DNA of 64,000 bases from Candidatus Borkfalkia faecavium (lineage in GTDB: Bacteria; Bacillota; Clostridia; Christensenellales; Borkfalkiaceae): NCBI GenBank assembly GCA_019114755.1, contig DXEW01000020.1, positions 1 to 64,000 on the forward strand, given 5' to 3'. Of the stretch, positions 1 to 43,543 are shown one piece after another. The translations under genes were made by a program, and so were the position numbers. Position 1 is the first letter of the stretch. Each line of letters starts with the position of its first letter. A model generated the notes under the pieces. It ran no database searches. It had not been told where the DNA came from and saw only the letters and a program-made list of their open reading frames with translations.

Positions 1-2
1 AG

Positions 3-1937
3 TGGCTGACTATAAAGCGACTTAAAAAGCTCAAAGAGTTCACGGTCACGACTTGGGAGAAGATGCCTGAACATGACGATGAAATTGTCATCGGTGCGGA
101 GAAGAAAGGGAAAGGTTTGGAGATTATCTCCACGAGCGCATTGCACGCGCTCATCGTCGGCACGACGGGCAGCGGCAAGACGACGGGCTTTGTCGATCAG
201 AACATAGCCATTCTCGGTAAAAGCCGCGGCAAGCCGAGTATGATTATCGCCGACCCGAAAAAGGAACTGTACGAAAAGCACGCAAAGCAACTTGAAAGTG
301 AGGGTTACAAAATTTCTACGCTCGATTTGCGCGAGCCGTATTCGTCGGCACGATGGAATCCCATGCAGGTACTCATCCGCCGTATCCGTCAGGTGAAAGA
401 GTTGCAGAACGACCTAAAACAGGAGGACGGCAAATACTACGCCTGCGGCGAGGTGTTCTTATCCCACCGTGACGCGCGCACGAGGGTGCAGGAGTTAAAG
501 GACGAGATCTTCGAGAACGCGATGGATTTGGTATATACGCTCTGTCCCGTCCAAAACAAAGACCAGCCCACATGGGAAGAGGGTGCGCGTAACCTCATCT
601 TCGGTCTGGTGCTTGCCTTCTGCGAGGATGTCATTTCGGGCAAGATGGACGAAAAGCAGTTGCAGCTCTTTAACGTGTACCATAATGTGACCAAATATTG
701 CTCTGAGGACACGACGGCATTAAAGCAATACCTGCTCGAAGGCAGGGATGAGTTTTCAAAGGTGAGGGGGCTTGTCAACACGGTACTCATCACGAGCGAC
801 AAGACATTGACGAGCTATCTTTCCGAAGTCAACAGCTATATGCAGCAGCTCTCGGACGACGGCATTCTCTCCATGACGAGCGAGAACGACATCGATATAG
901 CGAACATGGACGAAAGTCCGAACGCGCTGTTTGTCATCGTGCCGGACGAGCGGTTCACGCGCCACCGATTTGTTACGCTGTTTCTCACGCAGACCTATAA
1001 GGAGCTGGTCGAAAAGGCGAATACCAATCTTCGTAAGAAGCAGACGGATACGGCGATCTTAAAACGCCGCGCCTATTACATTTTGGACGAGTTTGCAAAT
1101 CTTCCGAAGATGGAGAACATCGAAGGCATGGTCACGGTCGGGCGTTCAAGGGGTATCCGGTATCTGTTCGTGTTACAGAGCTTTTCACAGTTGAATGCCA
1201 AGTACGGGAAAGACGTTGCGGATATTCTGAAGTCCAACTGCAATGTAAAGTTGTTTATCGGCTCGGACGATGCGGAGACGAGGAAAGAGTTTTCCGAACT
1301 TTGCGGGCAGAAGAAGGTCAAGAGCTTTTCGGTGAATACAAGCGCGGAAAACCCTGCGTCCTCGAATACGGGCGCGAGCAATCAGCCGCTCATAACGCCG
1401 GGGATGCTCGAGCGTTTGAACGGCGACGAAAAGGGCGACGCGATTGTTTCGGTGAGAGGCTATGAGCCGATCTGGACGCGGTTCACATCGTCGTATGAGC
1501 TAAAACACATTTATTTTGCGGCGGGTAAGGCGGATATTGGGAAGCGCGAAGCGCGGTTGTTCGACAAGAGTCAATATGTGTTTGATATTTGCGGCGGAAG
1601 TCAGGCAGAGGAAGAAGAAAGACAGCTCATCGCGATCGAGCAGCGGGAGCGGGAAGAAACAGGGAGTGCGCCGAACATTGCCGAGCTCGACGCGGCATGG
1701 TCAAAGCAGCGCGAAGCGATCCGGAAGAAGGTGAGTTCTGCCGCGGCGGTCCTCGGCGATGAGGATGCTCAGGCATTGGTGGAAGCAAAGTTGGAGAATA
1801 AGCAGATGCTGATCGCGCTTCTCTTGCAGGAGTACACCGATCTTTCTGTTCGCCAAAAGCTCAACACACTCTCGGCATATCTGAGCGAAGCGCTCCCCAA
1901 ACTGCTCGAATTGCAGGAAAAGGTAAGAAATTCATAA
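3..1937 (+). CDS. VirD4/TraG-type conjugative coupling ATPase, 5'-truncated by window edge
   Basis: Walker A GTTGSGKTTGF, YYILDEFANLP, GRSRGIRYLFVLQSFSQL; frame open upstream of the ATG at 63 to the window edge. Confidence 0.9.
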   Translation, partial: WLTIKRLKKLKEFTVTTWEKMPEHDDEIVIGAEKKGKGLEIISTSALHALIVGTTGSGKTTGFVDQNIAILGKSRGKPSMIIADPKKELYEKHAKQLESEGYKISTLDLREPYSSARWNPMQVLIRRIRQVKELQNDLKQEDGKYYACGEVFLSHRDARTRVQELKDEIFENAMDLVYTLCPVQNKDQPTWEEGARNLIFGLVLAFCEDVISGKMDEKQLQLFNVYHNVTKYCSEDTTALKQYLLEGRDEFSKVRGLVNTVLITSDKTLTSYLSEVNSYMQQLSDDGILSMTSENDIDIANMDESPNALFVIVPDERFTRHRFVTLFLTQTYKELVEKANTNLRKKQTDTAILKRRAYYILDEFANLPKMENIEGMVTVGRSRGIRYLFVLQSFSQLNAKYGKDVADILKSNCNVKLFIGSDDAETRKEFSELCGQKKVKSFSVNTSAENPASSNTGASNQPLITPGMLERLNGDEKGDAIVSVRGYEPIWTRFTSSYELKHIYFAAGKADIGKREARLFDKSQYVFDICGGSQAEEEERQLIAIEQREREETGSAPNIAELDAAWSKQREAIRKKVSSAAAVLGDEDAQALVEAKLENKQMLIALLLQEYTDLSVRQKLNTLSAYLSEALPKLLELQEKVRNS

Positions 1938-1950
1938 AAGGAGGGATGAT

Positions 1951-3297
1951 TTGAAAAAGTTTTTATTGGCAGGGCTGGCGGTATGCGGCCTGCTCGCATT
2001 CGCGGCACTGGCGGGTTGTGCCGCATCGGAAAGCAATGCGGATCCACCAGCGGCAGGGGAAGAGAGGACAGCTGTTGTCCGGAGCGTGGCGGAAGGGGTA
2101 TCGCCGCAAGCTGCGGCGATTGCAAGCGTACCCTGCGACCATACCTTTGCCGCGGTGCAGACGGTGGAGCCGTCCTGTACGGAGCAGGGCTATACCTTAT
2201 ACGCCTGCTCGCAGTGCGGGCAGAGCTACACGGACGACTTTACCCCCGCGAAGGGTCACACGATGCGAGAGGTCGTCGTGGAGCCGACTTGCACGCATCA
2301 GGGGTATACGACGCATTTTTGCACCGTCTGCGGCTATGAGTATTCAGACGCTTACAAGGAGGAGCGCGGGCATAAGTATGTTTCGGAAAAGATAGACTCC
2401 ACCTGTACGCAGGCGGGCTGCACGCTGCATACCTGTTCGGTCTGCGGTGAAAGCTATCGGGACGATTACCGCGAAGCGCTCGGGCATGCGTATGCCGAAG
2501 AGACGTTTGCTCCGACCTGCACGAGCGAAGGGTATACGAAGCAGACCTGCTCAAGGTGCGGCGACGAGGTAACGATGGACTATGTGCCCGCACTCGGGCA
2601 TACATACACCCAAACGGCGATCGCGCCGACGTGTGTGAGCTACGGATATACCGAACACCTCTGTTCCGTCTGCGGGGACCGAACTGTCATGGATTATATC
2701 GAGGCGACAGGGCATACGTTTCTCGACGTGCTGGTCGAAGCGACGCCCGAGAGCATCGGCTATACGCGGCATATCTGCATCGTCTGCGATTACAGCTATA
2801 TCTCCGACTATGTAACGAGCGGTGATACGGGCTATATCGAACCGCCCGAACAAGACCATGCGCATGCGTATGCGTTCTATGTACAGGATGCGCCCGAGGA
2901 GAAGTACTTCATCGCGCGCTATGTCTGTGACTGCGGCGCGAGCGCCGTGGGCAATGTGTCGGTTACGGCGACGGATCAAAGCGGCACGGCGGTACAACTT
3001 TCTGTCAACGAATACGGGCAGGTGGACTATTCCCGCCTTTCGGGAAGCTATACGGTGCGAATCACGGACGGAGCGGGGGAACTTCTCAAAGAGTTTTTTC
3101 TGACGGTGGAAGGGGAACCGCCCGAAGGCTTGCCCGAGGACAAGCCGCAGGAGCTGCCCGAAGAGACGGAACGGGGAGAAGAGGGCGGAAGCACGGGGAC
3201 GACGGTCCTGTTGCTGTTCATCCTTATATTACTCGCCGCAGGCGGTGCCGCGGCATGGCTTCTTATCAGAAGGAAGAAAAAGAAAAATCAAAAGTAA
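1951..3297 (+). CDS. Surface lipoprotein with about 6 C-x2-C/GH repeats and C-terminal TM anchor
   Basis: TTG start with RBS aggaggg; lipobox LAGC; repeats CTxxGYTxxxCSxCGxSY...GHxY; C-terminal LLLFILILLAAGGAAAWLLIRRKKKK. Confidence 0.75.
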   Translation: MKKFLLAGLAVCGLLAFAALAGCAASESNADPPAAGEERTAVVRSVAEGVSPQAAAIASVPCDHTFAAVQTVEPSCTEQGYTLYACSQCGQSYTDDFTPAKGHTMREVVVEPTCTHQGYTTHFCTVCGYEYSDAYKEERGHKYVSEKIDSTCTQAGCTLHTCSVCGESYRDDYREALGHAYAEETFAPTCTSEGYTKQTCSRCGDEVTMDYVPALGHTYTQTAIAPTCVSYGYTEHLCSVCGDRTVMDYIEATGHTFLDVLVEATPESIGYTRHICIVCDYSYISDYVTSGDTGYIEPPEQDHAHAYAFYVQDAPEEKYFIARYVCDCGASAVGNVSVTATDQSGTAVQLSVNEYGQVDYSRLSGSYTVRITDGAGELLKEFFLTVEGEPPEGLPEDKPQELPEETERGEEGGSTGTTVLLLFILILLAAGGAAAWLLIRRKKKKNQK

Positions 3298-3313
3298 AGG
3301 GAGGATATAAGAT

Positions 3314-3610
3314 ATGAATTTTAACTTACTTACGGAAACCGGACTGGACAGTAACCTTGCCGAGATCGTGGCAAAATTGCAGAGCCTGATGGATAGCTTC
3401 TGGGTGTATATTGTCATTGCACTCGCGGCGGTCGTCGTCATCTGGGGCGCGTACATCGGCATCAAGATCGCCATCGCGCACAGGAACGAAGAAAAGATCA
3501 ACGCCAAAGACATGGTGAAGCAGCTCATCATCGGCATCGTCATCATATTCGTCGTCGCGATGGGTGCACCGCTTCTCATTAACGGTCTGTCCGCTTGGGT
3601 CGGCGCGTAA
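3314..3610 (+). CDS. VirB2/TrbC pilin-like small two-TM protein
   Basis: 98 aa, two hydrophobic segments separated by charged HRNEEKINAKD, immediately before TrbL-like and VirB4 genes. Confidence 0.65.
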   Translation: MNFNLLTETGLDSNLAEIVAKLQSLMDSFWVYIVIALAAVVVIWGAYIGIKIAIAHRNEEKINAKDMVKQLIIGIVIIFVVAMGAPLLINGLSAWVGA

Positions 3611-3628
3611 AAACGGGAGTCTGAACAG

Positions 3629-3658
3629 AAAGGCGGCGTGTTATTTGCCGCCTTTCAT
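3629..3658 (+). terminator. Intercistronic hairpin after the pilin-like gene
   Basis: aaaggcggc-N9-gccgccttt followed by catttt. Confidence 0.6.
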
Positions 3659-3681
3659 TTTCAGATAACGGAGGAGGTTAA

Positions 3682-4899
3682 ATGCTGATATTTTTACAGG
3701 AGATAGGCTTGCAGCTCTTTCTATGGCTGTTGCAGCTTGTGGACGGGCTGATGGACTTATTTTCCGCCATGACGGGCATTGCCACGGTCAACTACCACGG
3801 GCAGCAAGTCAATCTTATCGAGTTTATCGTCGGCGACTCCGCCATCGGCACCGTCTTTTGGTGTATTTTCATCACGGCGGTGGGGCTCACCTGTATCTTT
3901 GCGATCGCGGGGCTCATCAAGAATATGATCTCCGGCAACCGCGGTGTGGCGACGGTCGTGGGGAAGTTCTTTCTCGCACTTTTGGGAACGATGGCAATGC
4001 TGGCGGTCGTGATCCTCGGTATCCTTATCGCCAACGGCTCGCTGCAGCTTCTGGCGCGCATCTTTCAGGTGGAGAACACGACCAAGCTCTCCAACGCCAT
4101 TTTCAATGCCTGCGTCGGTGATTGGCTGAACGGGTATTCGGCGGGGGATGTGGACGTGACGTCTCTCACGGTGCGCGAGATCCTGGGCGGTTACGATACG
4201 GCGCTGTTCGGGATCTGGCCTACGTCCTGGAAGGGGAACGGCATGGTCGACCCGAATACGTTCCTGTATCTTCCCTCGCTCGTAGCGGGCATCGCGCTCT
4301 GCGTGGCGCTCGTGATCGCCGTTCTCAATCTCGCAAAGCGCGTGTACGAGATCGTTTTTGCTTACTTCACGATGCCGATCGCCATGTCAACTTTGCCGCT
4401 CGACGATGGGGCGCGGTTCAAAAACTGGCGGGAACTCTTCGTCTCCAAACTCATCCTCGCCTATGGCGCGGTGTTCGCGGTCAATATCTTTGCGCTCATC
4501 CTGCCGCTCATCAATGTGGTGCATCTGGACGGGGTCAATAGCTTTGGCAACGCCATGTTCACCATCTTCATGATCGTGGGCGGCGCGATGCTCATCCCTG
4601 CGGGGCAGACGTTGTTTGCAAGACTATTCGGGCAGGCGGACGATATGCGTGCCGGTGGCGGGTGGCTGAGAAGCGCGTTCTACGGCGGGCGCATTGCAAG
4701 TGCCATGACGGTAGGACTTGCGGCGAAAGGCATCAAGGCGATCGCTTCCCGCAAGAAGGGCGACAGCGGTAACGGAAACAGCAGCGGCGATTCGGGCGAC
4801 GGTTCGTCCGGCGGAGATGAGAGCGACAAGTACAGCGACGGCGGCGAAAGCGCGAGCGCGCCGGACGGAGGAAGTGAAGAAGGAGGGGAAAGCAGTTGA
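3682..4899 (+). CDS. TrbL/VirB6-like multi-TM conjugal transfer protein
   Basis: 405 aa, multiple TM segments, hydrophilic Ser/Gly/Asp-rich C-terminal tail, position before VirB4. Confidence 0.75.
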   Translation: MLIFLQEIGLQLFLWLLQLVDGLMDLFSAMTGIATVNYHGQQVNLIEFIVGDSAIGTVFWCIFITAVGLTCIFAIAGLIKNMISGNRGVATVVGKFFLALLGTMAMLAVVILGILIANGSLQLLARIFQVENTTKLSNAIFNACVGDWLNGYSAGDVDVTSLTVREILGGYDTALFGIWPTSWKGNGMVDPNTFLYLPSLVAGIALCVALVIAVLNLAKRVYEIVFAYFTMPIAMSTLPLDDGARFKNWRELFVSKLILAYGAVFAVNIFALILPLINVVHLDGVNSFGNAMFTIFMIVGGAMLIPAGQTLFARLFGQADDMRAGGGWLRSAFYGGRIASAMTVGLAAKGIKAIASRKKGDSGNGNSSGDSGDGSSGGDESDKYSDGGESASAPDGGSEEGGESS

Positions 4900-7520
4900 G
4901 GATCATTCCGAAAAAAATTAAAGTGAAGAATACGGTATGGAAGTGCTATTCCATGACGGATGTGATTGTGGCGCTGTTTGTGTTTGCGCTCATCTTCATC
5001 GCAGTCACGGCTGGGAATTGGGCGTTTGCGATCGTTATGGGTTTGATAGCGGTAGTTATGTTCATGCCCACGCCCGACGGTATCTTTTATACCTGTATCT
5101 TTGAAAATGTAAAATTCCTGTTCGCCAAAAAGAGATATACGGCGGACGCGAAAAATCCGAAAGAAAACATAGACACGCTTTTGGGCCTGAAAGAAATCAA
5201 AACAAACGGCTTGCTCGCATACAGCGGCGGAATGTTCGGAAGGGTCATCAAGGTCGGGCAAAAGAACTTCGGTATCGAGGACGTAGTGCAGCAGAATATC
5301 GACATCAATTACATAGCCAACGCCTTAAAACTGCTCGACGCCAATCAGAGCGCGGACATCATCAAGATCGACCGCCCCGTGAATTTAGACGGTTTCTCGG
5401 AAGACCTGTTCGCCCGTCTTTCCGCATTGCGGGAAGAAGAGCCGCAGACGCGGGAGATCCGCCGCGGCATTTTGCAGGAACGCATCGACCGCATCGACAA
5501 GCTCAACAACATCCGCAAGCAGTATCTGTCCGACTATTATATTGTAGTGTATGGCAGGAACGAGCTTGATTTAGAGAGTGCGGCGATCAATATCGCGGGC
5601 GAAGTCGGCAAGAGCGGATTGTCTACAAAACTGTTAGGGCAAAGAGAGGCGGCTGTGTTTCTGAAATACAGTTTTTCTCGCAATTTTGACGAGCGGGAGG
5701 AAAAGGAGATTGCGGATGAGGATTTGCTCGCATGGGTAAAGCCGAAAGAAGTGGTGTTCCACGGTAACAGGTACGTCATTGACGGAACGGAGGCGAGCGT
5801 GCTTGCGGTCGCAGACTATCCTCTGCGCGTCAAAAACGCATGGGGCGCAAAACTGTTCAATATCCCCAACACGAAGATCGTGATGCATGTTCGGCCCGTG
5901 GACAAGTACAAGGCGATCCGCCGAATCGACAAGTGCATCGGCGAGATGGAAACCAAGCAGATCGTGGCGGAAAAAGCGAGCGAGGCGAACAGCGCGGAAA
6001 CACATCAGGAAACCATGAACGCGCTTCTCGATAGTTTGCAGACGGAAAACGAAAGCCTTTTGGACGTTACGCTGACCGTCACCGCCTATAACTATCTCAA
6101 AAACGAGAATTACAAAAAGGCGGTGCGTAGGGCAATGCTTACGGAAAACTTCAAACCGTCCACACTGTACGGCTTGCAGATCGAAGGCTTTAAGACGGCG
6201 GCGGTATCGCCCGTAAGCACGCTCAAAAATCACGAGCGCGGCATCAACAGCTCAAGCCTCGCGGCGGTGTTTCCGTTCGTGCGGACTTGTGTTTTGGACG
6301 AGGGCGGTATTCTTCTCGGCGAAAATAAGACGAACGGCTATCCGTTCATTCTCAATCTCTGGAAGAGGGGGAATCTGTATCAGAACAGCAACGCTATGAT
6401 CATCGGCAAATCGGGCTCGGGGAAGTCGTATTTTCTCAAAACGCTCATCGCGAACGAGTGGGCGAACGGCACGAGAGTGATCGTATTAGACCCCGAAGCC
6501 GAGTATCTGACGCTCACCCGAAACCTTGCAGGCAATATCATTGACGTGGGCAACGCAAAGGAGGGGCGCATCAACCCGTTCCATATCTATAAAATACTCA
6601 CGGAGGACGGCACGCCTGCCGATCCGAAGGTCACGTTCAATACGCACCTGAAAATGTTGGAATCGTTTTTCAAGATCGTACTTGCGGATGCGCCCGTGGA
6701 CGTCATCGAACTCATCAATAACCTTGTGGTGGAAACTTATGAGCGGATGGGTATTACGGAGAATACCGACTGCTCGGCATTCCCTGCGGACTACTTCCCG
6801 TTGTTTTCCGACCTTTTGGAAACATTACAGAGCAAAAATAAGGAAAGTATGGATGAGCTTACCAAGAGGGATATGCGCACGGCGGAACTGTATTTGCAGA
6901 AGTTTGTTTCGGGTAGGTATTCGGACATCTGGAACGCGCCGTCCACGTTAAAGACAGACGCAGACCTCATCGACTTCGATTTTCAAAGCCTGTTTGCGAA
7001 TAAGAACAATACGGTGGCGAATGCGCAGATGCTGCTCATTTTCCGATTCATCGAGCAGGAAGTCATCAACGCGAGAGAGAAGAACAAGGGCGGGGCAAAC
7101 CTTCATACGCTCATCATCGCGGACGAGGCGCATCTCTATATCGACCCGAAGTTTCCCATCGCGCTCGACTTCTTCTATTCGATGTCAAAGCGTATCCGCA
7201 AGTACAACGGCTCGTTCGTTCCCGCCACGCAGAATATCGCCGATTGGAATGCGAACGAAGAACTGCGCGGCAAGACCTCGGCGATCATCAAGAACAGTCA
7301 GTATAGCTTCATTTTCAAACTGTCCGCGCCCGACATGAAGGACGTACTTGACATTTACAAAGCGGGCGACAGCTTCAACGACGAGGAGCAGCGCATGATC
7401 ATCTCGGCGGTGACGGGGCAGACGTTCTTTGTGGGGAGTACGGAGCTTCGCAACTGCATTCTCGTCAAAGCAGGGGATTATACGCAAGGCTTATTTGAAG
7501 AAAAGGAAGGGCATCAATGA
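4896..7520 (+). CDS. VirB4-type conjugative ATPase with N-terminal PrgI-like membrane segment
   Basis: Walker A IIGKSGSGKSYFLK, Walker B LHTLIIADEAHLYID, SMSKRIRKYNGSFVPATQN; TTG start overlaps previous stop; two N-terminal TMs. Confidence 0.9.
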   Translation: MRIIPKKIKVKNTVWKCYSMTDVIVALFVFALIFIAVTAGNWAFAIVMGLIAVVMFMPTPDGIFYTCIFENVKFLFAKKRYTADAKNPKENIDTLLGLKEIKTNGLLAYSGGMFGRVIKVGQKNFGIEDVVQQNIDINYIANALKLLDANQSADIIKIDRPVNLDGFSEDLFARLSALREEEPQTREIRRGILQERIDRIDKLNNIRKQYLSDYYIVVYGRNELDLESAAINIAGEVGKSGLSTKLLGQREAAVFLKYSFSRNFDEREEKEIADEDLLAWVKPKEVVFHGNRYVIDGTEASVLAVADYPLRVKNAWGAKLFNIPNTKIVMHVRPVDKYKAIRRIDKCIGEMETKQIVAEKASEANSAETHQETMNALLDSLQTENESLLDVTLTVTAYNYLKNENYKKAVRRAMLTENFKPSTLYGLQIEGFKTAAVSPVSTLKNHERGINSSSLAAVFPFVRTCVLDEGGILLGENKTNGYPFILNLWKRGNLYQNSNAMIIGKSGSGKSYFLKTLIANEWANGTRVIVLDPEAEYLTLTRNLAGNIIDVGNAKEGRINPFHIYKILTEDGTPADPKVTFNTHLKMLESFFKIVLADAPVDVIELINNLVVETYERMGITENTDCSAFPADYFPLFSDLLETLQSKNKESMDELTKRDMRTAELYLQKFVSGRYSDIWNAPSTLKTDADLIDFDFQSLFANKNNTVANAQMLLIFRFIEQEVINAREKNKGGANLHTLIIADEAHLYIDPKFPIALDFFYSMSKRIRKYNGSFVPATQNIADWNANEELRGKTSAIIKNSQYSFIFKLSAPDMKDVLDIYKAGDSFNDEEQRMIISAVTGQTFFVGSTELRNCILVKAGDYTQGLFEEKEGHQ

Positions 7521-10033
7521 ACAGAGTAAAGAAAAATCGAATTTGCATCATTTTGGCGGCGGTCATGGCGGCGGTGTGCCTCTGCCTCTGTTTGCGGGTG
7601 GATATGACGGCGGCCGCGGCAGCGACGCCGCGCTACACCATGACCTTTTCAGGAACATATAAAAATAATTCCTGGGGAGCGGACGGGCTGACGACAAGCA
7701 TCAGCAACGAGACGAGTTACGGGCTGAAGACGGGGAGTTCGGCGGGCAGAAAGGAATATATGAGCCTGACGCTGGAGGGCAGTTCCACTGCGGGCAGCGC
7801 CACGCTTTCAAACGGCGGGTATGTCACCTCGCCGCGGGTCACGATCACGGCGTCGCTGGAGGCGGACGTATCTCTCTATCGCGGCAGCAGGTTGATCGCG
7901 TCCGGCAATACGTCTGTTTCTGCAGGCGTGTCGGACGGCGAATATCGGGTAGAGGTGTTCAAAGAAAACGGCGGCGGCGCGGGGTACACGCAGTGGGGGT
8001 ATGAGCTGGAACTCTATTCCTATTTTAATATAGATACCACGGCGCCCGTGGGTACGATCGAAAGCGGCGGCAAGGCCGTCTCGTCGGGCGGCAGCGTGAG
8101 CGAAGATTTTTCCTTCCGCGCCGCAGACAGCGGCAGCGGGGTCGCAAAACTGGAATATCGGGAGCCCGGCTCGTCGTCATGGAAGAGCTATACGGCGGGG
8201 AAGGTTATCTCCGCCGCGGGTGAAAGAGGGGAATATACTTTCCGCGCGACCGACCATGCCGGCAATACTTCAGTTAGTTCCGTCACGCTGGAAAACGCGC
8301 ACGCACATCACTACACGGCAAAGGTCATGCCGCCGACCTGTACGACGGGCGGCTATACCCAATACACCTGCACGGAGTGCGGCGACAGTTATACCGGGGA
8401 TCGTACGGCGGCGCTGGGGCATGATTATCTTTCGACGACGAGCGGCGTTTCCTGCACCACGGGCGGGACCATCCGCTTTACCTGTTCCCGCTGCGGGGAT
8501 AGCTATACCGAAGATATCCCCGCAACGGGGCATAGTTATCAGAGCAAGACGGTCTCTCCGACCTGCACATCGGGCGGTTATACCCGCCATACCTGTACCC
8601 GCTGCGGAGACAGCTATACGACCAATCGCACGCAAGCGCTCGGGCATAGCTACACGGTATCGTCCGAGCGCGATCCGACCTGTACAAGCGGGTCGGTGAC
8701 GGTCTATCGCTGTACGCGCTGCGGCAGCACCTACTCGGACGAGGATTCCGACGCTTTGGGTCACAGCTATGACGCGGATGTCATCAACCCCACCTGCACG
8801 GCGGGCGGCTATACGGTGTTCTCGTGCAGGAGATGCAGCTATAGTTATACAGGCAATTCTACGGCAGCCTTGGGGCATAGCTACAAGGCAACGACGACGC
8901 CGTCTTCCTGTTCGACGGATGGATATACCACTTATAAATGCATCCGTTGCGGCGCAAGTTATACCGACAGTCCCACGCAGGCGACAGGGCATAGCTATGT
9001 CGCCGAGATCGTCTCATCCACCTGTACGGAGCGGGGCTATACCGTCTATACTTGCAGCAAGTGCGGCGACAGCTATCGCACCAATGAGACGCAGCCGCTG
9101 GGGCATACCTATGTCATTTCCACGGAAGGGGCGACCTGTACGGAGAGCGGCGTTTCCGTATATACCTGCACCCGCTGCGGGTCGAGCTATGAGGGCGGGC
9201 TGACGGCACCGCTCGGGCATAACTATGTGGCGGAGCAGAGACCCGCAGGATGTACGGTGGAGGGCGGCACCGTCTATACCTGTACGCGATGCGGAGACAG
9301 TTATAACGGAGAGCCGACGCCGCCTCTCGGCCATGCGTATATCTCCAAAGCCGTCGCCGCGACGTGTGCAGAAGGGGGATATGTTCTCCACACTTGCAGC
9401 CGCTGCGGGGACAGCTATCAGGACAATGAGACGCAGCCGCTGGGGCATAATTTCGTGACGGAGGAACGCCCGCCTTCCTGTACAGAAAGCAGCCGCACCG
9501 TCTATATCTGTCAGGTATGCGGCTTTGAAAAGGCGGAAGAGACGGGGACTTACCCGACGGGTCACGACTATGCTTCCAGCGTACTTCATGCCGCGACCTG
9601 TACGCAGGCGGGGGAGCGGAAGTTTGTCTGCGACAAGTGCGGAGAAGAATATATCGAGACTATCCCGGCGACTGGCCACACTTATGCGATCACCGATTCG
9701 ACCACGCAGGACGGCGTGACCATCCGCACCTATACCTGTTCGGTCTGCGGCGATACTTTCGCGCAGGAGCTCGGCGATCAGTACGAGGAAGTGGCGTCTT
9801 ACATCGAATATTTGTTCGAGCAATACCGCCCGTATATGATTTGGGTATTCCTTGCTACGGCGGGCGTGTGGAGCATCGTGATGGGAGTTTGCTTCGCCAT
9901 TGCCCAAAAACATGAGGAGAAGGAGAAAGCCAAGCGCATGATCTTCAACTACCTCATCGGTCTTGTCGTCATCTTCTGTATCCTCGTTGCCGCCCCGCTC
10001 CTCGTTCGCGGCATCGCTGCGCTCGTGACGTAA
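7517..10033 (+). CDS. Secreted protein: Ig-like N-terminal region, 12-13 C-x(9-11)-CxxC-x(n)-GH repeats, C-terminal VirB2-pilin-like two-TM domain
   Basis: Signal sequence; repeats such as TCTSGGYTRHTCTRCGDSYTTNRTQALGHSY; C-terminus AIAQKHEEKEKAKRMIFNYLIGLVVIFCILVAAPLLVRGIAALVT resembles ORF 3314-3610. Confidence 0.8.
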   Translation: MNRVKKNRICIILAAVMAAVCLCLCLRVDMTAAAAATPRYTMTFSGTYKNNSWGADGLTTSISNETSYGLKTGSSAGRKEYMSLTLEGSSTAGSATLSNGGYVTSPRVTITASLEADVSLYRGSRLIASGNTSVSAGVSDGEYRVEVFKENGGGAGYTQWGYELELYSYFNIDTTAPVGTIESGGKAVSSGGSVSEDFSFRAADSGSGVAKLEYREPGSSSWKSYTAGKVISAAGERGEYTFRATDHAGNTSVSSVTLENAHAHHYTAKVMPPTCTTGGYTQYTCTECGDSYTGDRTAALGHDYLSTTSGVSCTTGGTIRFTCSRCGDSYTEDIPATGHSYQSKTVSPTCTSGGYTRHTCTRCGDSYTTNRTQALGHSYTVSSERDPTCTSGSVTVYRCTRCGSTYSDEDSDALGHSYDADVINPTCTAGGYTVFSCRRCSYSYTGNSTAALGHSYKATTTPSSCSTDGYTTYKCIRCGASYTDSPTQATGHSYVAEIVSSTCTERGYTVYTCSKCGDSYRTNETQPLGHTYVISTEGATCTESGVSVYTCTRCGSSYEGGLTAPLGHNYVAEQRPAGCTVEGGTVYTCTRCGDSYNGEPTPPLGHAYISKAVAATCAEGGYVLHTCSRCGDSYQDNETQPLGHNFVTEERPPSCTESSRTVYICQVCGFEKAEETGTYPTGHDYASSVLHAATCTQAGERKFVCDKCGEEYIETIPATGHTYAITDSTTQDGVTIRTYTCSVCGDTFAQELGDQYEEVASYIEYLFEQYRPYMIWVFLATAGVWSIVMGVCFAIAQKHEEKEKAKRMIFNYLIGLVVIFCILVAAPLLVRGIAALVT

Positions 10034-10163
10034 AAAATGCGGAACTTACCTTTGCTATTCAGCCCGTAAAAATTTTTTCGGGAAAATGCTCCGAACCCCT
10101 TGACAAACGGGAGAAAATGTGATATTCGTATTAACACGAAGAAAGAGAAAAGGAGGCGCACTC

Positions 10164-10526
10164 ATGAACGCACAGGAAATCATTGCAAAAGCGGACAGGG
10201 GAGAGGGGCTGACCGAAGAAGAGATCAGAGTCTATCGTGAAGCAGTCAAGCCTGTCAAGCACACCTACGGCAAGTACGGAACGCTCGCCAAGAAGTATCT
10301 GGAAGAGGAGAATGTCGGCAAGTATTGGGCTATTGAAAACCTTCCCGAATACCTGCACGGCATCGACCGTCAGGCAGGCGAGCTGTACGAAACCATGTAC
10401 GCTAAGCTGTCCAATGATGAGAGATATAAACGGACGGGCAACTTTATGGAGGACTACCGCAGACAGACGGAAATTCAAAAGTTGATTGAGGAAGAGATAC
10501 TCATTGAACTTGTTTATGTGGATTGA
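10164..10526 (+). CDS. Hypothetical ICE accessory protein (120 aa)
   Basis: ATG with RBS aggagg; shorter start preferred over ORF-track GTG 10119. Confidence 0.65.
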   Translation: MNAQEIIAKADRGEGLTEEEIRVYREAVKPVKHTYGKYGTLAKKYLEEENVGKYWAIENLPEYLHGIDRQAGELYETMYAKLSNDERYKRTGNFMEDYRRQTEIQKLIEEEILIELVYVD

Positions 10527-10539
10527 CGGGAGGTGTAAC

Positions 10540-10662
10540 ATGAGGACTGTTTTAGGAATCGGAAAGGGGTTGCTGAAAGCGATGTTCATAGGGGTTGTGT
10601 TTATCGGAACCTGCGTCATGAACTTTATCGGCGCGATCATCTGCGCGATAGCGGGAAATTGA
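10540..10662 (+). CDS. Small single-TM protein (40 aa)
   Basis: RBS gggaggt before ATG; MRTVLGIGKGLLKAMFIGVVFIGTCVMNFIGAIICAIAGN; below ORF-track size cutoff. Confidence 0.5.
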   Translation: MRTVLGIGKGLLKAMFIGVVFIGTCVMNFIGAIICAIAGN

Positions 10663-10672
10663 GAGGTGGAGC

Positions 10673-10909
10673 ATGGAACGTAAACCGGATACGCCCGTTC
10701 GCAAGAGTCGCAGGAAGTACGAAGAGCGGAATAAGGACGAGCGGAAAGAAAAGAACAAGGTGTGGGGAACGAGCATCGACCGCCAATACGCGAACGAGAT
10801 AGACGAGTTCCTCGCAAGGCATGACCTTACAAAGGTGGAGCTGATCGTTGCAGGGTACCAAGCCTTGCGGGGTCGCTATGGCCCGGAAGAACAACAGAAT
10901 AAGCAATAA
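10673..10909 (+). CDS. Small basic, possibly DNA-binding accessory protein
   Basis: 78 aa; basic N-terminus; RBS gaggtg. Confidence 0.55.
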   Translation: MERKPDTPVRKSRRKYEERNKDERKEKNKVWGTSIDRQYANEIDEFLARHDLTKVELIVAGYQALRGRYGPEEQQNKQ

Positions 10910-10915
10910 GTTTGA

Positions 10916-10943
10916 GAGCGCAAGGACTACGGCTCTTGCGCTC
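10916..10943. terminator. Hairpin after small ORF operon
   Basis: gagcgcaag-N10-cttgcgctc. Confidence 0.5.
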
Positions 10944-11077
10944 CTGACTTCTTAAAGACAACTGAATATCAATTCCAAACGGCATAAGAAAGAAAATGAA
11001 CATTGGAGAAATGGAGCGCAACGGACTTATGCCGCTGCATTGCATCTTTCGGTGTTTTTAAGCGGGAGAATGAGGGT

Positions 11078-11260
11078 GTGAATAAGAGACATAGAACTAT
11101 CAATTTAGGGAACAAGAATTATATAATTAAAAGTCATTTCGCGGGAGGAAACAAAATTGATGAAGTATTGATGAGGGCGGCTATTTTTGCGGCGCAAGAA
11201 GAAATTCGGATGATGTCAAATCAAGAATCAGGGATATGCGATCAAGGAGGGGATCCTTGA
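11078..11260 (+). CDS. Small protein translationally coupled to recombinase (60 aa)
   Basis: GTG start after gggagaatgagg; stop TGA overlaps recombinase TTG start (TTGA). Confidence 0.5.
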   Translation: MNKRHRTINLGNKNYIIKSHFAGGNKIDEVLMRAAIFAAQEEIRMMSNQESGICDQGGDP

Positions 11261-12879
11261 AAATAAAAAGCAATAATTGCATAGTAGGTATATACGTTAG
11301 GCTGAGCCGAGACGATGAACGTGCGGGTGAGTCGTTATCGATCGAAAATCAAAAGTCTTTACTTGTGCGATACGTCAACGAAAAGGGCTGGATTCTACAT
11401 GATATATATGTAGATGATGGAATTTCAGGCACTACGTTTGAACGCGAAGGTGTGCAAAGGTTACTTGCCGATGCTAAAAGTGGTATCATAAATACGATCT
11501 TAGTCAAAGATATGTCGCGCTTTGGTAGGAATTACATTCAAATCGGGCAGTATATCGACTATGTTTTTCCTATGTATCATATTCGGTTCATTGCTGTCAG
11601 CGATAACATAGATACAGGAAGTGATAACACCGTTGCAATGGACATGATGCCCATTACAAATGTATTTAATGAATGGTATGCCGCTAACACAAGCCGAAAA
11701 GTGCGGCAAATATTTATTGCGAATGCGAAACGCGGCAAAAGCAATATGTCGCATCCGCCGTATGGTTATTTGTTTAGTGATGACGGTTCACGGAAATTTG
11801 TGATCAATACAGAAGTAAGCCCAAATGTTGAGCGCATATTTGAGATGCGAGCCAGCGGGCTGCCTCCGGCGCGGATCGCCGAAAGATTTAACGAAGAACA
11901 TATCACTACGCCGCAGGATTACAAAGCACAAAGATTTGGTAAATATGCAGCCATAAAGACTTACCATCTGTGGACGGATGCTTCTGTAAGAAAAATTCTC
12001 GACAATCCGGCATATATTGGCAATTTAGCTTTACAACGAAGGACATCTGTTTCGTTTAAAAATCATAAGGCTGTATATCGCCCGGAAGAAGAATGGATCG
12101 TTACAGAAAATGCGCATCCTGCTATTATTTCCAAAGAGCTTTGGCGCAGGGTTAAAGAAGTAGAAAAGTCTGTCAGTCAAGGGAAAAAAACTCGAAAAGG
12201 GTATACCCATCCACTTTCAGGTTTTCTGTTTTGCGCTGATTGTGGAGGAAAAATGAAACTGGACTATTATGCTTTAAAGCATAACGGTGAAGTGACCGGT
12301 ATAGTTTATACTTTTAATTGCGGCAATCATAAACGGTTAGGGAAAGCATATTGTTCAAGTCATTATATCAAGGCAAAGGACCTAGAAAAATTTGTGCTCG
12401 ATGATATTAAAGCGATGGCTTCTTGTGTGACTTTGAATGAAGCAGAAGTGCGCAAACAGTATTTAGAACGCAAAACGAAATTGGCGGAAGAAGAGTTGAT
12501 GCATAATCGAAACGAGTTCGATCAAAAGCGCAGGCGTTGTGATAAACTTGACCAGCTAATAGAAACTGCGTTTGAAGAAAAGATCGCCGGGAATATGCCG
12601 GAAGATTTGTGCGTGAAACTTATCGAACGCTATTCAACAGAGCGCCGGCAACTACTCGGCGAGATCGAGGCTATGGATAAGCAGGAAGCTTTAATAGCTA
12701 ATGTTCAAAATGATGCCGACGACTTTATCGCAAGAGTAAAAAAGCATATGTTTGATGTTACGCTTACACGGGCGTTATGCTTTGAGCTTATTGATAAAAT
12801 CGTTATAGGCAGAGCTGTTTCAGGTGAGCCGCAAAATATAGAAATATATTACAAAGTTGACTTGAACTTTATTCAATGA
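11257..12879 (+). CDS. Large serine recombinase (TnpX/TndX-type integrase)
   Basis: VGIYVRLSRDDE...ESLSIENQKSLL, DDGISGTTFEREG, KDMSRFGRNY; recombinase zinc-ribbon FCADCGGKMK; TTG start with aaggagggg RBS. Confidence 0.92.
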   Translation: MKIKSNNCIVGIYVRLSRDDERAGESLSIENQKSLLVRYVNEKGWILHDIYVDDGISGTTFEREGVQRLLADAKSGIINTILVKDMSRFGRNYIQIGQYIDYVFPMYHIRFIAVSDNIDTGSDNTVAMDMMPITNVFNEWYAANTSRKVRQIFIANAKRGKSNMSHPPYGYLFSDDGSRKFVINTEVSPNVERIFEMRASGLPPARIAERFNEEHITTPQDYKAQRFGKYAAIKTYHLWTDASVRKILDNPAYIGNLALQRRTSVSFKNHKAVYRPEEEWIVTENAHPAIISKELWRRVKEVEKSVSQGKKTRKGYTHPLSGFLFCADCGGKMKLDYYALKHNGEVTGIVYTFNCGNHKRLGKAYCSSHYIKAKDLEKFVLDDIKAMASCVTLNEAEVRKQYLERKTKLAEEELMHNRNEFDQKRRRCDKLDQLIETAFEEKIAGNMPEDLCVKLIERYSTERRQLLGEIEAMDKQEALIANVQNDADDFIARVKKHMFDVTLTRALCFELIDKIVIGRAVSGEPQNIEIYYKVDLNFIQ

Positions 12880-13000
12880 GTGCGGGATGAAGGGCTTTGG
12901 CGGTTACAGTCCATTGCCGCCAACAGCCACCGCAAGGGAAAATTTGGAGGAAAAGAAAAGGGCAGAGCAAAAATAGATCGCCGCATTATACTGTAAACGG

Positions 13001-13040
13001 AATGCCGATGCGCCTGTACGAAGGGCATCGGCATTTTTTT
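13001..13040 (+). terminator. Intrinsic terminator
   Basis: aatgccgatgc-N13-gcatcggcatt followed by T-run. Confidence 0.75.
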
Positions 13041-13110
13041 GTTTTACCCAAGCCAAAGCAAAAGGGAGCTGCCCCGCAGGCGCATCGTGCGTGCGGGCGG
13101 CTGTTTTTAC

Positions 13111-13178
13111 GACCAGTTACGAAGAAGAGGCGCCACTTGCGAAAAAGTTGTGCCGCTTTTTTGTTTTTGTGTTACAAT
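13111..13178 (+). promoter_or_regulatory. Candidate response-regulator direct repeats (20-bp period) and -10 TACAAT upstream of GH3-1
   Basis: ccagttacgaagaag (13113) and ccacttgcgaaaaag (13133), 20 bp apart; tacaat at 13173. Confidence 0.45.
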
Positions 13179-13403
13179 ATGCCCGCAAATACGGACAGCC
13201 GCCTCATACGGGAAGCCGCTTCAAAAAATCGGCCGATCTTTGGGGGAAGTTTCCTCTTTGGGGGCAGCAGCTTGGCGGGGCAATATCCTCCTCGGGGGCG
13301 GGCAGTTCCTGCGAGGGCGGCGCCCCCTGCGGGCGGGCGCATCCTCTCGGAGGGGCAGCATCCCATCGGGCGGCGATCCGCAAAATACAAAACGGAGGTT
13401 TTT

Positions 13404-16370
13404 ATGATCCTTAAACGGCTGAGTCGTGGACTCACGACGGTATTCACGGTGATCTTCACCGTGGTGCTCGGGCTGACGGCGCTGGCGTACCAGGCGGAAG
13501 CGGACGTCAACCAGATCTTGGGCACGTCGTCGTACGAGATCGTCCAGAATGAAGGGGCGGAAGAGACGGACACCCGGTACTTCAAACAGAAGACGAGATC
13601 GATCGACGAATTTATGCAGCAAAAGCTGGATATCATCGAACAGGTGACCGACGAAGGCACCGTCCTTCTCAAAAACGAAAACAGCGCACTGCCGCTGGCG
13701 GCGGGTGCGCGGGTGACGCTGTTCGGCAGGGCGAGCTATAACTCTGTCTATGGCGGCGATTCCGGCAACGCGCAGATCGGCAACCTCGGCAACCAGAACA
13801 TCAACTGGACTTTCCGCCGCGGGCTGGAAGAGGCGGGATTTGCCGTCAACGACGAGATGTGGAACTTCTACGCCCAGCGCAACATCGCCTATAACGCAGA
13901 TCCTTCCGCCGAAGTTGCGCCCGACCAGCTGCCTATGGGCAGCGTATCCGGCTATGCGGATGCGGGTATCGTCGTCCTTTCCCGCGTGACGGGCGAAGGC
14001 GGCGACGCGCCCGACGGCTATTATGAACTGACGCAGACCGAGCTTGACCTGGTGAACGCCGCCAAAGAGGCGTGCAGCAAGGTCGTGGTCATCATCAATT
14101 CGCCCTCGCCCATCGCCATCCACGCCCTCAAAGAGGACGCGGGCGTGGGCGCCATCCTGCAGATCGGGGGCCTGGGCGCCCTCGGCACAAAATCGGTGGG
14201 CAAGATCTTGGCGGGCGAGGTCAGCCCGTCGGGCAAGCTCATCGATACCTACGCGGCGAGCTCCCGCTCTTCGGCGGCGTACCAGTCGGCGGGCACGGTC
14301 GCCTATGCCAATGCGGACGCCGTCTCCGCTGCCGCTACCTCCATCGGCATCGGCGCGGGCGGCACCAAGTACACGGTGTTCAGCGAGGGCATCTACGTCG
14401 GCTATAAGTATTATGAAACGCGCTATGAAGACTGCGTGCTCGGGCAGGGCAACGCCGCCTCTTCCGCGGGCGTGTTCGCAAGCAGCGGCAACTGGAATTA
14501 CGACGAAGAGGTAGACTATCCCTTCGGCTACGGCCTCTCGTACACCGATTTCTCGCAGGAGCTTACAGGCCTGACGGTGGAAAACGACGTGGTCACCGCC
14601 ACCGTGCGCGTCACCAACGAAGGCGACGTGGCGGGCAAAGAAGTGGTGCAGCTGTACGTGCAGTCGCCGTACACGGAGTACGACAAAGAGAACGGCGTGG
14701 AAAAATCTGCCATCCAGCTGGTCAACTTCGGCAAGACGGGCATCCTGCAGCCGGGCGCATCGGCGGAAGTGACGCTGAAGATGGACCTGTACAACATCGC
14801 CAGCTGGGACTATAACAAGGCCAAGACCTGGATCCTGGACGAGGGCAGCTATTATTTCGCCGTAGGCGAGAGCGCGCACGACGCCCTCAACAACGTGCTG
14901 GCCGCCAAGGGCGCAGACGTCGCAGGGGATAAAGATCTGGCGCGCGTCTGGGAAAACGACGCCTTCCGCACCCTCGGCGAATATGAATTTACGGAAGCGG
15001 GCTTCACCACCGAAAACGGCCTCTTCCACAACAATACCGAGACCGCTTATACGAACCGCCTGGACGAGGCAGACCTGAACGACCTCGTGGGCGAAGGCAC
15101 CACCACCTATCTGTCCCGTTCCGACTGGAGCGGCACCTGGACGGAGGGGCTGAAGGCGGTCACCGCCACCGAAGAGATGATCGACCAGATCGCCTTCCTT
15201 TCCGATTATCAGAAGGGCGAGCCGGTGGGCGATTCCTACACCTACGGCGCAGACACCGCCTTCAACATCCTCATGGCAAAAGGCAAATCGTACGACGACG
15301 AGGTGTGGGAAGATATCCTGAACCAGCTGATGGTGGAAGAGATGATCGCCATGGTGGGCAAAAACTTCGGCGCCATCGACCCCGTGCTCGGCCTCAACTT
15401 CCCCGGCACCAACGACAACGACGGCGTCGGCTCCGGCCCCTGCGTCGGCTATCCCTCTTCGCTGGATACGGGCAGCACCGTCATCGAAGGGGAAACCAAG
15501 TACAGCGCCATCGAGCCGCGCATGTATCCTTCCGAAACGGTAGAGGCCGCCACCTTCAATCAGCAGCTCGTCTACGATTTGGGCGAGGTGATGAGCGAAG
15601 ACTGCTTCTATACCGGCATGACCACCCTGTGGGGCCCCGGCCTGAATATCCACAGGCATCCCTATTCCGGCCGCAACTTCGAATACTTCTCGGAAGATTC
15701 GCAAATGACCTACATCATGGGCGCGCAGATCACCGCGGGCGTGCAGTCGAACGGCGTCATCTGCGGACCCAAGCACTTCGCCTTCAACGATCAGGAGACC
15801 GACCGCTACGGCTTTGCCGTGTACACCAACGAGCAGGCGGGGCGCGAAAACAGCCTGCGCGGCTTTGAAGGCGCAGTCGCCGTCGCCAAGGCCAAAAACG
15901 TGATGACTTCCCTCAACCGCGTCGGCTGCCGCTGGATGGGTATCAATACCGCCCTGCAGAACGACGTCCTCCGCAGCGAGTGGGGCTTTGACGGCTACAC
16001 CATCACCGACAACGCCTTAGAGCCGTACATGTGCGGCAGATCCATCGCCCTCGGCACCGATAAACTGATGCTGCTGCCCGGCAACGAGCGCAACGACGAG
16101 CTCAATAAAGAGGCGCTGCTGGCAGACAGCACCCTGTTCGCCGCCGTGCGCCAGGCCTGCCACCGCATCCTGTATGTTTACGTCAACAGCAAGGCGATGA
16201 ACGGCATCTCCGCCGATACGCAGATCGTGCCCGTCACCCCTTGGTGGAAGACGGCGCTGGTCAACGTCAACGTCGTCCTCGGCTGCCTCGTCGCCCTCGG
16301 CATCGTCGGCTGCATCGCCACCTACGACTGCCGCGGCAAGAACGCAAAAGTCAAAGTAGAGGAGGAATAG
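13404..16370 (+). CDS. GH3-1: membrane-anchored, domain-permuted glycoside hydrolase family 3
   Basis: N- and C-terminal TMs; GH3_C-like VTDEGTVLLKNENSALPL and FGYGLSYT first, then CGPKHFAFNDQETDR, NEQAGRE and GFDGYTITDN; RBS cggaggttttt. Confidence 0.88.
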   Translation: MILKRLSRGLTTVFTVIFTVVLGLTALAYQAEADVNQILGTSSYEIVQNEGAEETDTRYFKQKTRSIDEFMQQKLDIIEQVTDEGTVLLKNENSALPLAAGARVTLFGRASYNSVYGGDSGNAQIGNLGNQNINWTFRRGLEEAGFAVNDEMWNFYAQRNIAYNADPSAEVAPDQLPMGSVSGYADAGIVVLSRVTGEGGDAPDGYYELTQTELDLVNAAKEACSKVVVIINSPSPIAIHALKEDAGVGAILQIGGLGALGTKSVGKILAGEVSPSGKLIDTYAASSRSSAAYQSAGTVAYANADAVSAAATSIGIGAGGTKYTVFSEGIYVGYKYYETRYEDCVLGQGNAASSAGVFASSGNWNYDEEVDYPFGYGLSYTDFSQELTGLTVENDVVTATVRVTNEGDVAGKEVVQLYVQSPYTEYDKENGVEKSAIQLVNFGKTGILQPGASAEVTLKMDLYNIASWDYNKAKTWILDEGSYYFAVGESAHDALNNVLAAKGADVAGDKDLARVWENDAFRTLGEYEFTEAGFTTENGLFHNNTETAYTNRLDEADLNDLVGEGTTTYLSRSDWSGTWTEGLKAVTATEEMIDQIAFLSDYQKGEPVGDSYTYGADTAFNILMAKGKSYDDEVWEDILNQLMVEEMIAMVGKNFGAIDPVLGLNFPGTNDNDGVGSGPCVGYPSSLDTGSTVIEGETKYSAIEPRMYPSETVEAATFNQQLVYDLGEVMSEDCFYTGMTTLWGPGLNIHRHPYSGRNFEYFSEDSQMTYIMGAQITAGVQSNGVICGPKHFAFNDQETDRYGFAVYTNEQAGRENSLRGFEGAVAVAKAKNVMTSLNRVGCRWMGINTALQNDVLRSEWGFDGYTITDNALEPYMCGRSIALGTDKLMLLPGNERNDELNKEALLADSTLFAAVRQACHRILYVYVNSKAMNGISADTQIVPVTPWWKTALVNVNVVLGCLVALGIVGCIATYDCRGKNAKVKVEEE

Positions 16371-16373
16371 GCA

Positions 16374-16772
16374 ATGAAAAACATTCTCTCTAAAAAGGGC
16401 GCAGGCTTTTACCTGCAAGTTCTCACCATCCTCTGCGCCGTCGTCGGGCTGATCGCCTATACCGTCGCCGGGCAAGACAGTTACGGCTTTGTCCCCGCGG
16501 TAGACGTGCTTTTGGCGCTCGGCATCGTCTGCGGCATCGTATTCTGCGTCAAAGACTTCTTCCGCGCCGGGCCCATCCTCACCATGGCATTCTTAGGCTC
16601 CGCCGTGGGCGTGTTCCTGCTCTCCCGCTTCATGTACTACGCCCACCAGTTCTACGGCATCGCTTCCGACCCCATCACGGGCGCCATGGTCGCCACCACC
16701 GTCGCCTTCATCGGCATGCTGGTGTTCGGCATGATTTCGGCATTCTTTGCCTGGGATAAAGAAGGTGAATGA
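16374..16772 (+). CDS. 4-TM membrane protein coupled to GH3-1
   Basis: 132 aa, four hydrophobic segments, starts 3 nt after GH3 stop. Confidence 0.7.
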   Translation: MKNILSKKGAGFYLQVLTILCAVVGLIAYTVAGQDSYGFVPAVDVLLALGIVCGIVFCVKDFFRAGPILTMAFLGSAVGVFLLSRFMYYAHQFYGIASDPITGAMVATTVAFIGMLVFGMISAFFAWDKEGE

Positions 16773-16773
16773 T

Positions 16774-17571
16774 ATGAAGAGTTTATCCTTAAAAAATAAG
16801 ATCATGGCGGCACTGGCCATCGCCCTCTGCGCCGTCATCGTCGGCTTCCTCATCTATACCGCCGTCGTCATCGTCAACGGCGTAAAGCCCAAGGCGCCCG
16901 CCGTCATCGGCGACGATACCGTGTACGATGTCAATTTCGGCGGCAATATTTCCCTTCTCGGCGTCGACTACGACGTAGAGCTGCAGGGCAACGACGGCGA
17001 GTTCACCGTCAACGCCGGCCGCATTTCCGGCGTCACCGGCGGCACCTACACCTTCACCGAAGGGCAGGGCTGGACCTTCTCGTTTGCCGATGCGGGCAGC
17101 ACCGTCGTACGCTCGCAGTTCGACGATGCGAGCAAGACCTTCTCGTTCGTGTACCACCTCGACCTCGGCTCGCGCGGCGCGGGCAACCTGCGCTTCTCCT
17201 TTACCGATGAAGACTTCACCGTAGACGGCGAGCCGTGGGCGGATATCCCTTCCTTCGGCGGCACGGCTGTCTGGTTCGGCGGGGCTGTCTCTGCGGGATG
17301 CAGCTGCTCCTGCGATGCGGAAGGAAACTTCACCATCTTCTCGGAGCCTACGGCGGCGGCCGCCATCACTTCGATCACGGGCACGTATGAATTTACGGGC
17401 GGCGTCTATGTGCTGACGGCGGCAGACGGCACGGTATATACTTCCACCGTCAATGCCGACGGCCTGCACGAGATCGCCTTGAAGGTGTTCTGCCCGCAGC
17501 TGGCAGCCTACGGCGACGCCATCGCCTATACCGATCTCGTCCTTACGCAGATCGTACTCACGGTCGATTAA
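16774..17571 (+). CDS. Membrane-anchored extracellular protein, unknown function
   Basis: N-terminal TM then polar beta-rich sequence; same operon direction. Confidence 0.65.
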   Translation: MKSLSLKNKIMAALAIALCAVIVGFLIYTAVVIVNGVKPKAPAVIGDDTVYDVNFGGNISLLGVDYDVELQGNDGEFTVNAGRISGVTGGTYTFTEGQGWTFSFADAGSTVVRSQFDDASKTFSFVYHLDLGSRGAGNLRFSFTDEDFTVDGEPWADIPSFGGTAVWFGGAVSAGCSCSCDAEGNFTIFSEPTAAAAITSITGTYEFTGGVYVLTAADGTVYTSTVNADGLHEIALKVFCPQLAAYGDAIAYTDLVLTQIVLTVD

Positions 17572-17602
17572 GTTCACCGGCTCAAGCATTCTTCCTGAAA
17601 AG

Positions 17603-17632
17603 GGGGCGCTCCGCAATTTTGCGGAGCGCCCC
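17603..17632. terminator. Strong GC hairpin at operon end
   Basis: ggggcgctccgc-aatttt-gcggagcgcccc. Confidence 0.55.
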
Positions 17633-17695
17633 TGCATGCTTACAGGCAAAGCCGCGCGCCGTGGGGGGCTGCCAAGAACAGCCGGCGGCAAACGG

Positions 17696-17724
17696 TTGCC
17701 TTTTGCGTCGGCGGATGGTATACT
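17696..17724 (+). promoter_or_regulatory. SigA-type promoter of RR-1/HK-1
   Basis: TTGCCT-N17-TATACT. Confidence 0.65.
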
Positions 17725-17883
17725 ATAAGGATAAAATACGGGTCGTTTCTTTCCCGTACAATAGAATGACAGCCGGGCCGAAGCCCTCGGGGGAGAGCGC
17801 TTCGGCTCGGCAACGGGGATCCCCGTTGCTTTTTGCGCAGCAAAAAGCAACTCCCTTGTTCGGCAAAATAAGGAGGAAAGCAC

Positions 17884-19887: not shown

Positions 19888-19942
19888 CGGGGATATAACG
19901 ACGCGGCGGGCCGAAAAAAGACAAAAATACAAAAAAGACATC

Positions 19943-19971
19943 AAAAAAAGAGCCCCTGCGGCTCTTTTTTT
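19943..19971. terminator. Bidirectional intrinsic terminator between convergent genes
   Basis: aaaaaagagccc..gcggctctttttt. Confidence 0.85.
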
Positions 19972-19978
19972 ATATCGG

Positions 19979-43280: not shown

Positions 43281-43487
43281 GAAAGTTCTCCTTTGTTTTC
43301 GGGCGGTTTTGCCCGCTATCATGTATATGCGCCGGCGCGCCGCGCGTGTGCCGTTTTCGGCATCCACGCATATAAGAGGCATTGCTGCATTCGTATTGGC
43401 CGCGTGAGCATTTATTCCTAAAAGTCTTCCGTAACTGCCAATGTGCATCGGCGCGGCAGCTGCCGTTTTGCGTATAGATGTTTGTCG

Positions 43488-43516: not shown

Positions 43517-43543
43517 TGGGTAAGATCGGTCGGGAGGAGGAAA

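Follow-up and report, generated by a model that had tools for sequence, protein, structure and literature searches.

A VirB2-like pilin domain fused to an exchangeable outer module in conjugative elements of Candidatus Borkfalkia and its relatives

Integrative and conjugative elements (ICEs) of Candidatus Borkfalkia faecavium and related gut bacteria encode a protein in which a large outer part is joined to a C-terminal VirB2-like pilin domain. The outer part is exchanged as a module, since it can be unrelated between elements whose VirB4 ATPases are 95-99% identical, the break in similarity lying inside the fusion gene. The C-terminal domain is homologous to the free pilin of the same element. 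From these comparisons we lean towards the reading that the fusion is a surface recognition protein (adhesin) attached to the Gram-positive conjugation machine via its VirB2-type pilin domain, the swappable outer tip probably being the recognition arm for mating. To our knowledge, recipient recognition by Gram-positive donors is known for just a few adhesins. A VirB2-type pilin fused to a swappable outer module is apparently undescribed, since neither a pilin-adhesin fusion of this kind nor a pilus on these elements was found in the open-access literature searched. A review describes Gram-positive T4SSs as lacking conjugative pili (PMC12857230), and VirB2 has been said to be absent from Gram-positive T4SSs outside Patescibacteria (PMC12857230; PMC12102498).

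The element and its gene neighbourhood

The window, by which we mean the whole stretch of 64,000 nucleotides analysed, begins a 134-kb contig, and the transfer end of an ICE occupies its first 13 kb. The genes of the window described here are on the forward strand unless stated otherwise. A VirD4-type coupling protein (63-1937; PF02534, E 8e-49; NF045973, E 7e-74) is followed by a repeat or bead protein (1951-3297) with a lipoprotein-like signal, 5-6 CxxC units, a C-terminal transmembrane segment and a Lys-rich tail, for which the CD1107-like family PF14283 gives a weak match (0.017). Then come a stand-alone VirB2-like pilin of 98 aa (3314-3610), a VirB6-like polytopic membrane protein (3682-4899; NF045848, E 8.2e-50) and a Mbov_0397-like VirB4 ATPase (4896-7520; NF045975, E 3.3e-171, with a bit score narrowly below the cutoff). 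The start of the fusion gene (7517-10033) overlaps the stop of virB4 by 4 nt. Downstream are a small protein of the TnpV family (10119-10526; PF14198, E 8.3e-10), a 78-aa ORF without Pfam match that is conserved in synteny (10673-10909) and the large serine recombinase of the element (11236-12879; PF07508, PF00239 and PF13408).

The window's own relaxase is out of view because window base 1 is also the first base of the contig. A sister element from another genus, 91-96% identical from virD4 to virB4, has a MobL relaxase and an ArdC-like gene upstream and a tyrosine integrase at its opposite end. The ICE setting proposed in the original prediction is borne out by TnpV and the serine recombinase of the window and by the relaxase and tyrosine integrase of the sister element. 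As near-identical transfer regions go together with different integrases (serine type in the window, 11236-12879; tyrosine type in L161:1587-3011), the integration modules are exchanged too. A search against a defence library gave no match, and no RNA families were found in positions 1-20000.

In nearly every element of the family, a counterpart of the bead protein at 1951-3297 separates virD4 from the pilin gene; it diverges faster than VirB4, and no wholesale swap of it was seen in close pairs.

Architecture of the fusion protein

The fusion gene encodes 838 aa from an ATG start, and the product is arranged as a signal peptide, two beta-sandwiches, 12.5 CxxCG..GH units and a two-helix C-terminal domain. 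According to hydropathy and translation, the putative signal peptide (aa 1-36; 7517-7624) has a basic start, a hydrophobic stretch at aa 9-27 and an AxA-like end. It is followed by the exchangeable tip (7625-8290), consisting of beta-sandwich 1 (aa 37-172) and the Ig-like beta-sandwich 2 (aa 178-258), both confidently predicted by AlphaFold (pLDDT mostly above 90). The Ig-like region noted from the sequence at the outset corresponds to an OmpL47-type domain at aa 198-253 (E 2.8e-10). Twelve complete 38-aa C-x9-C-x2-C-G...GH units (aa 263-721; 8303-9679) come next, then a half unit with CxxCG and without the first Cys (aa 722-748; 9680-9760), in keeping with the 12-13 repeats originally counted; the intact fusions all have such a half unit ahead of the pilin. 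The VirB2-like T4SS_pilin domain occupies aa 753-837 (9773-10027), with long helices predicted at aa 755-797 and 802-837. As judged by sequence, the fusion combines the features looked for in a Gram-positive conjugation adhesin of the PrgB and TIEpLS20 kind (export, a stalk, attachment to wall or membrane, a place in the transfer region), namely the signal-peptide-like start, the unit array, the two-helix end and the site after virB4. A fold search with the full-length model returned GhpA and complement proteins, which are multi-domain beta rods, with TM-scores of about 0.1, and these matches were not used.

The pilin domain and the free pilin

The C-terminal domain of the fusion is homologous to the element's own free pilin. 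The alignment made by eye in the original prediction was reproduced by BLASTP over 86 aa without gaps (33% identity, 58% positives, E 6e-12) and by profile-profile comparison (probability 99.1%, E 1.5e-18). The prediction depended on the VirB2-like nature of this domain, which is confirmed: the C-terminal 93 aa alone score 30.7 bits against PF18895 (T4SS_pilin), above the gathering cutoff of 26.6, while the entire 838-aa protein scores 24.9 bits, slightly below it. All 23 relatives tested match PF18895 as well, with E values up to 0.01. The free pilin of the window matches PF18895 (E 1.6e-4) and the Mbov_0395 pilin-like family NF045849 (E 2.4e-6) below both cutoffs, and 22 of 22 relatives match the latter.

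Both proteins have two hydrophobic helices, which lie at 32-50 and 71-89 in the free pilin. In the fusion, TM1 (777-795) and TM2 (812-830) are separated by a short charged loop (796-811), an arrangement looked for in VirB2 pilins in the wide sense. The genes adjoining the pilin encode VirB6 and VirB4, which is the linkage expected of VirB2. The pilin domain is predicted to form a two-helix hairpin (mean pLDDT 84.7). Free and fused pilins have 18 identical residues in common, each at least 85% conserved in both forms (W, G, N, E, K, A, M, N, G, P and L among them); they are distributed over helices, loop and flanks, and several are the polar loop residues N, E, K and N, which do not face lipid. 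The free pilin is very conserved across the element family (alignment A4), and the fused domain less so.

PF04956 (TrbC/VirB2) is absent among the Pfam matches of the fused pilin, and no pilin is found among the PDB sequence or fold matches of this domain. Comparison of the hairpin with solved structures gave nothing significant, two-helix hairpins being too plain. The link to VirB2 therefore comes from PF18895 and from the free pilin.

The Cys/His units

The first Cys, the CxxC and the His are all kept in 276 of the 280 complete units of the family, so that the full set of potential ligands is nearly always there, and the half unit before the pilin is without the first Cys in every case. Each complete unit is predicted to be a small beta structure of three strands. 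With three Cys and one His apiece, the units would suit a metal site better than simple disulfides, and the one observation that may speak for Zn is the joint retention of C, CxxC and H. Solved Zn domains show no homology over the whole unit, alignment with fingers and rubredoxins being limited to the CxxCG knuckle; for the same reason, matches of the units to Pfam zf-CHY and to zinc fingers in the PDB were not taken as homology. The idea of a length ruler, in which more units would go with a shorter tip, was set aside because the correlation is weak (rho -0.30, p 0.06).

Family and distribution

Using the fused pilin as a query, 85,462 species genomes were scanned and 68 loci were obtained, mostly from uncultured Clostridia, Candidatus Borkfalkia and Coproplasma, together with Pumilibacter intestinalis CLA-AA-M10 and two Bacilli bins. 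With that of the window counted, 42 proteins are long and uncut, or 41 intact fusions once L142 is removed; the fusion noted in a single element does occur in other ICEs. L142, which has 809 aa and no units, was excluded along with L140 and L113; in these three a partial pilin is joined to unrelated sequence, and the joins were taken for rearranged or assembly junctions. Nearly all relatives are metagenome bins, in which chimeric joins are possible, though unlikely across so many. The copy of P. intestinalis CLA-AA-M10 (L115:8156-10279) has an in-frame stop right before the pilin domain, while copies elsewhere are intact.

All 41 intact fusions have at least three units (range 3-13). The part before the first unit varies from 184 to 756 aa among 40 intact members with 3 to 13 units, and the whole ectodomain fused to the pilin measures 485-1009 aa across the family. 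In each of the 38 intact copies with virB4 in view, this gene is immediately upstream of the fusion, mostly overlapping it; some of the overlaps are too long, because the start codon assigned is the first possible one. A free VirB2-like gene is present in the same element in 26 of the 30 intact copies with virB6 in view. As for the other four, L133 and L134 carry a 259-284-aa form made of ectodomain plus pilin instead, and two contigs are cut.

An order-level sample contained a pilin match in 58 of 396 genomes and the fusion in about a dozen, and in a phylum-level sample just one other genome of 399 had any pilin match, in a short frame. A plasmid collection searched with the fused and the free pilin gave no match. 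Viral contigs yielded two loci, at least one of which (L159) has an ICE-like gene order.

Exchange of the outer module

The element of the window and its sister loci L078/L040 in another genus (G215) share 91-96% DNA identity and have identical fused pilins, yet no long DNA similarity exists over 7487-8481, which corresponds to the signal peptide, the tip and the first unit. In the pair L111 and L114 the VirB4 proteins are 99% identical and the DNA is 94% identical through the pilin gene, virB6, virB4 and about 60 nt into the fusion gene; DNA similarity is then lost across tip and units (3 vs. 12 units) for 1.6 kb and 2.1 kb, and it returns at 85% over the last approximately 300 nt, encoding the pilin. 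The same pattern is seen in L097/L111 and L095/L105. For these comparisons the tip was taken to end 12 residues ahead of the first unit. Among eight pairs with at least 95% identical VirB4, tip identity is 91-98% in two and 23-60% in six, where shuffled tips reach up to 28%. Across 30 elements, pilin identity can be predicted from that of VirB4 (Mantel rho 0.80, 0 of 2000 permutations), whereas tip identity can be predicted only weakly (rho 0.20, 82 of 2000 permutations).

L111 and L114 are two bins of one rabbit sample, and a chimera is conceivable there. As a general explanation of the swaps chimeras are poor, since the missing correlation between tip and backbone extends across 30 elements from many studies. 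A recognition module that is selected for change would be expected to show this pattern of exchange. The tip of one distant relative is of the BspA-type LRR kind (PF13306, E 6.8e-21). No silent tip copies were found in the window's own genome (90% complete), which contained only bead and pilin matches. The G+C content of the tip and unit DNA (7517-9680) is about 59%, compared to 52% for the whole element stretch (1-12879) and 60% for the chromosome part; this could be due to origin or to the amino acid make-up of the repeats.

Relation to known systems

The pilins of Patescibacteria (PMC12102498) belong to the same family, PF18895, and to a monoderm-type T4SS, with genes for VirB4, VirB6 and VirB2-like proteins close together. 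Pilin genes in tandem, as in Patescibacteria (PMC12102498), are also seen here in L056, L069, L071 and L076. However, the Patescibacteria pilins are small and occur in arrays (PMC12102498), whereas here one of them is fused to an ectodomain of 485-1009 aa, in ICEs of Christensenellales and some Bacilli.

Families built on Mycoplasma ICE proteins Mbov_0395, Mbov_0396 and Mbov_0397 (NF045849, NF045889 and NF045975) are also related, VirB4 and VirB6 matching strongly and the free pilin weakly; the window pilin and, narrowly, VirB4 stay below the equivalog cutoffs. The consecutive Mbov numbers suggest the gene order pilin-VirB6-VirB4, as found here. We know of no pilin fusion in Mycoplasma ICEs.

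In terms of function, the closest work-alike would be PilV, and TIEpLS20 would be closest among Gram-positive systems; neither is linked to VirB2. Exchangeable tips of the PilV minor pilins of TP114 choose recipients, as proven experimentally (PMC9045228). PilV of IncI plasmids and TP114 likewise combines a constant assembly part with an exchangeable adhesive part (PMC9045228), but it is a type IV pilus pilin with C-terminal tips that a shufflase switches, whereas the present fusion has a VirB2-type pilin, an N-terminal tip and no second tip copy in its own genome. TIEpLS20 (pLS20 p34) is a stalked adhesin needed for efficient mating in liquid (PMC8092201). Together with PrgB of pCF10, it resembles the fusion in being a Gram-positive conjugation adhesin with a signal peptide, an adhesive part and a stalk (PMC8092201). 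Unlike the fusion, TIEpLS20 and PrgB are not linked to a pilin, and their domains and stalks differ.

Proposed role and alternative explanations

Export by Sec would leave the N-terminal tip outside the cell, and the signal peptide suggests that both ends of the fused pilin are outside, as in VirB2, the two helices and the charged loop crossing the membrane with VirB2 topology. The pilin domain might then dock onto the free pilins or assemble together with them, serving as a minor subunit or as the first one, and the rod of 3-13 possibly metal-stapled units would reach across the cell wall and bring the tip into contact with the recipient or some other surface. A new tip would then retarget the element. 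The original reading of the protein as a tip or minor pilin presenting an adhesin gains from the pilin homology; its adhesin part is backed strongly, if indirectly, by the module swapping and the BspA-type LRR tip.

The domain could instead be a mere two-helix anchor taken from the neighbouring pilin gene, making the protein a membrane-tethered adhesin that never enters a pilus or pilin assembly. This we regard as rather unlikely, although conjugative pili are unproven in Gram-positive bacteria (PMC12857230), the fused domain is the less conserved of the two pilins and the second bead protein has a plain transmembrane anchor. A simple anchor needs neither the polar loop nor the Gly, Pro and Asn positions held in common with the free pilin, and the close tracking of VirB4 by the fused pilin domain also argues against it. 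The constant place of the fusion right behind virB4, seen wherever an intact copy and virB4 are both in view, would also suit a structural part of the T4SS that spans the wall or extends the channel in place of missing VirB5/VirB8-type parts, a stalk of 3-13 units perhaps fitting wall thickness and the outer diversity reflecting drift or differing walls. Such a role seems improbable, because the outer part is replaced wholesale at 95-99% VirB4 identity rather than by slow drift and the number of units goes from 3 to 12 even among such close elements. Slightly more improbable still is surface exclusion or shielding, or an outer part that varies to evade pilus-binding phages or antibodies and not for recipient choice: exchange of surface-protein modules suits any antagonistic selection, but exclusion proteins would hardly need a pilin domain, and nothing else specific speaks against this idea.

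Beyond the adhesin reading itself, we tentatively consider a wider possibility, which we hold with well under even confidence, that one class of Gram-positive ICEs assembles VirB2-type pili in which a pilin-adhesin fusion, its rod stapled by metal, serves as the tip or a minor subunit, and that swapping of the adhesive module between elements changes mating partners, as a VirB2 counterpart of PilV in bacteria considered to lack conjugative pili. A pilin-adhesin fusion with such a swappable module, recurrent in elements of gut Christensenellales, would tie the adhesin directly and physically to the transfer machine. It would also make recipient choice in the gut genetically accessible and give grounds to seek real pili in Gram-positive conjugation.

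Other proteins with pilin domains or repeats

A second kind of pilin fusion, of about 275-285 aa, was observed at L049:12294-13148 (reverse strand), L051:800-1630 and L071:746-1603. After a signal-peptide-like start, these proteins have an ectodomain of about 150 aa that matches no Pfam family, and they end in a VirB2-like domain; they stand beside the free pilin or replace it. In a divergent element, the pilin gene and virB6 are separated by the gene of a bead protein of 2140 aa (L065:4050-10472), which has 24 units as well as DUF1542 repeats. The CxxCG..GH unit is used outside the element too, as a chromosomal open frame of 2041 aa (L009; G000:C12:77168-80014) carries many of them. On the reverse strand of the window, a 749-aa ORF (41511-43760) contains a long array of collagen-like Gly-X-Y repeats.
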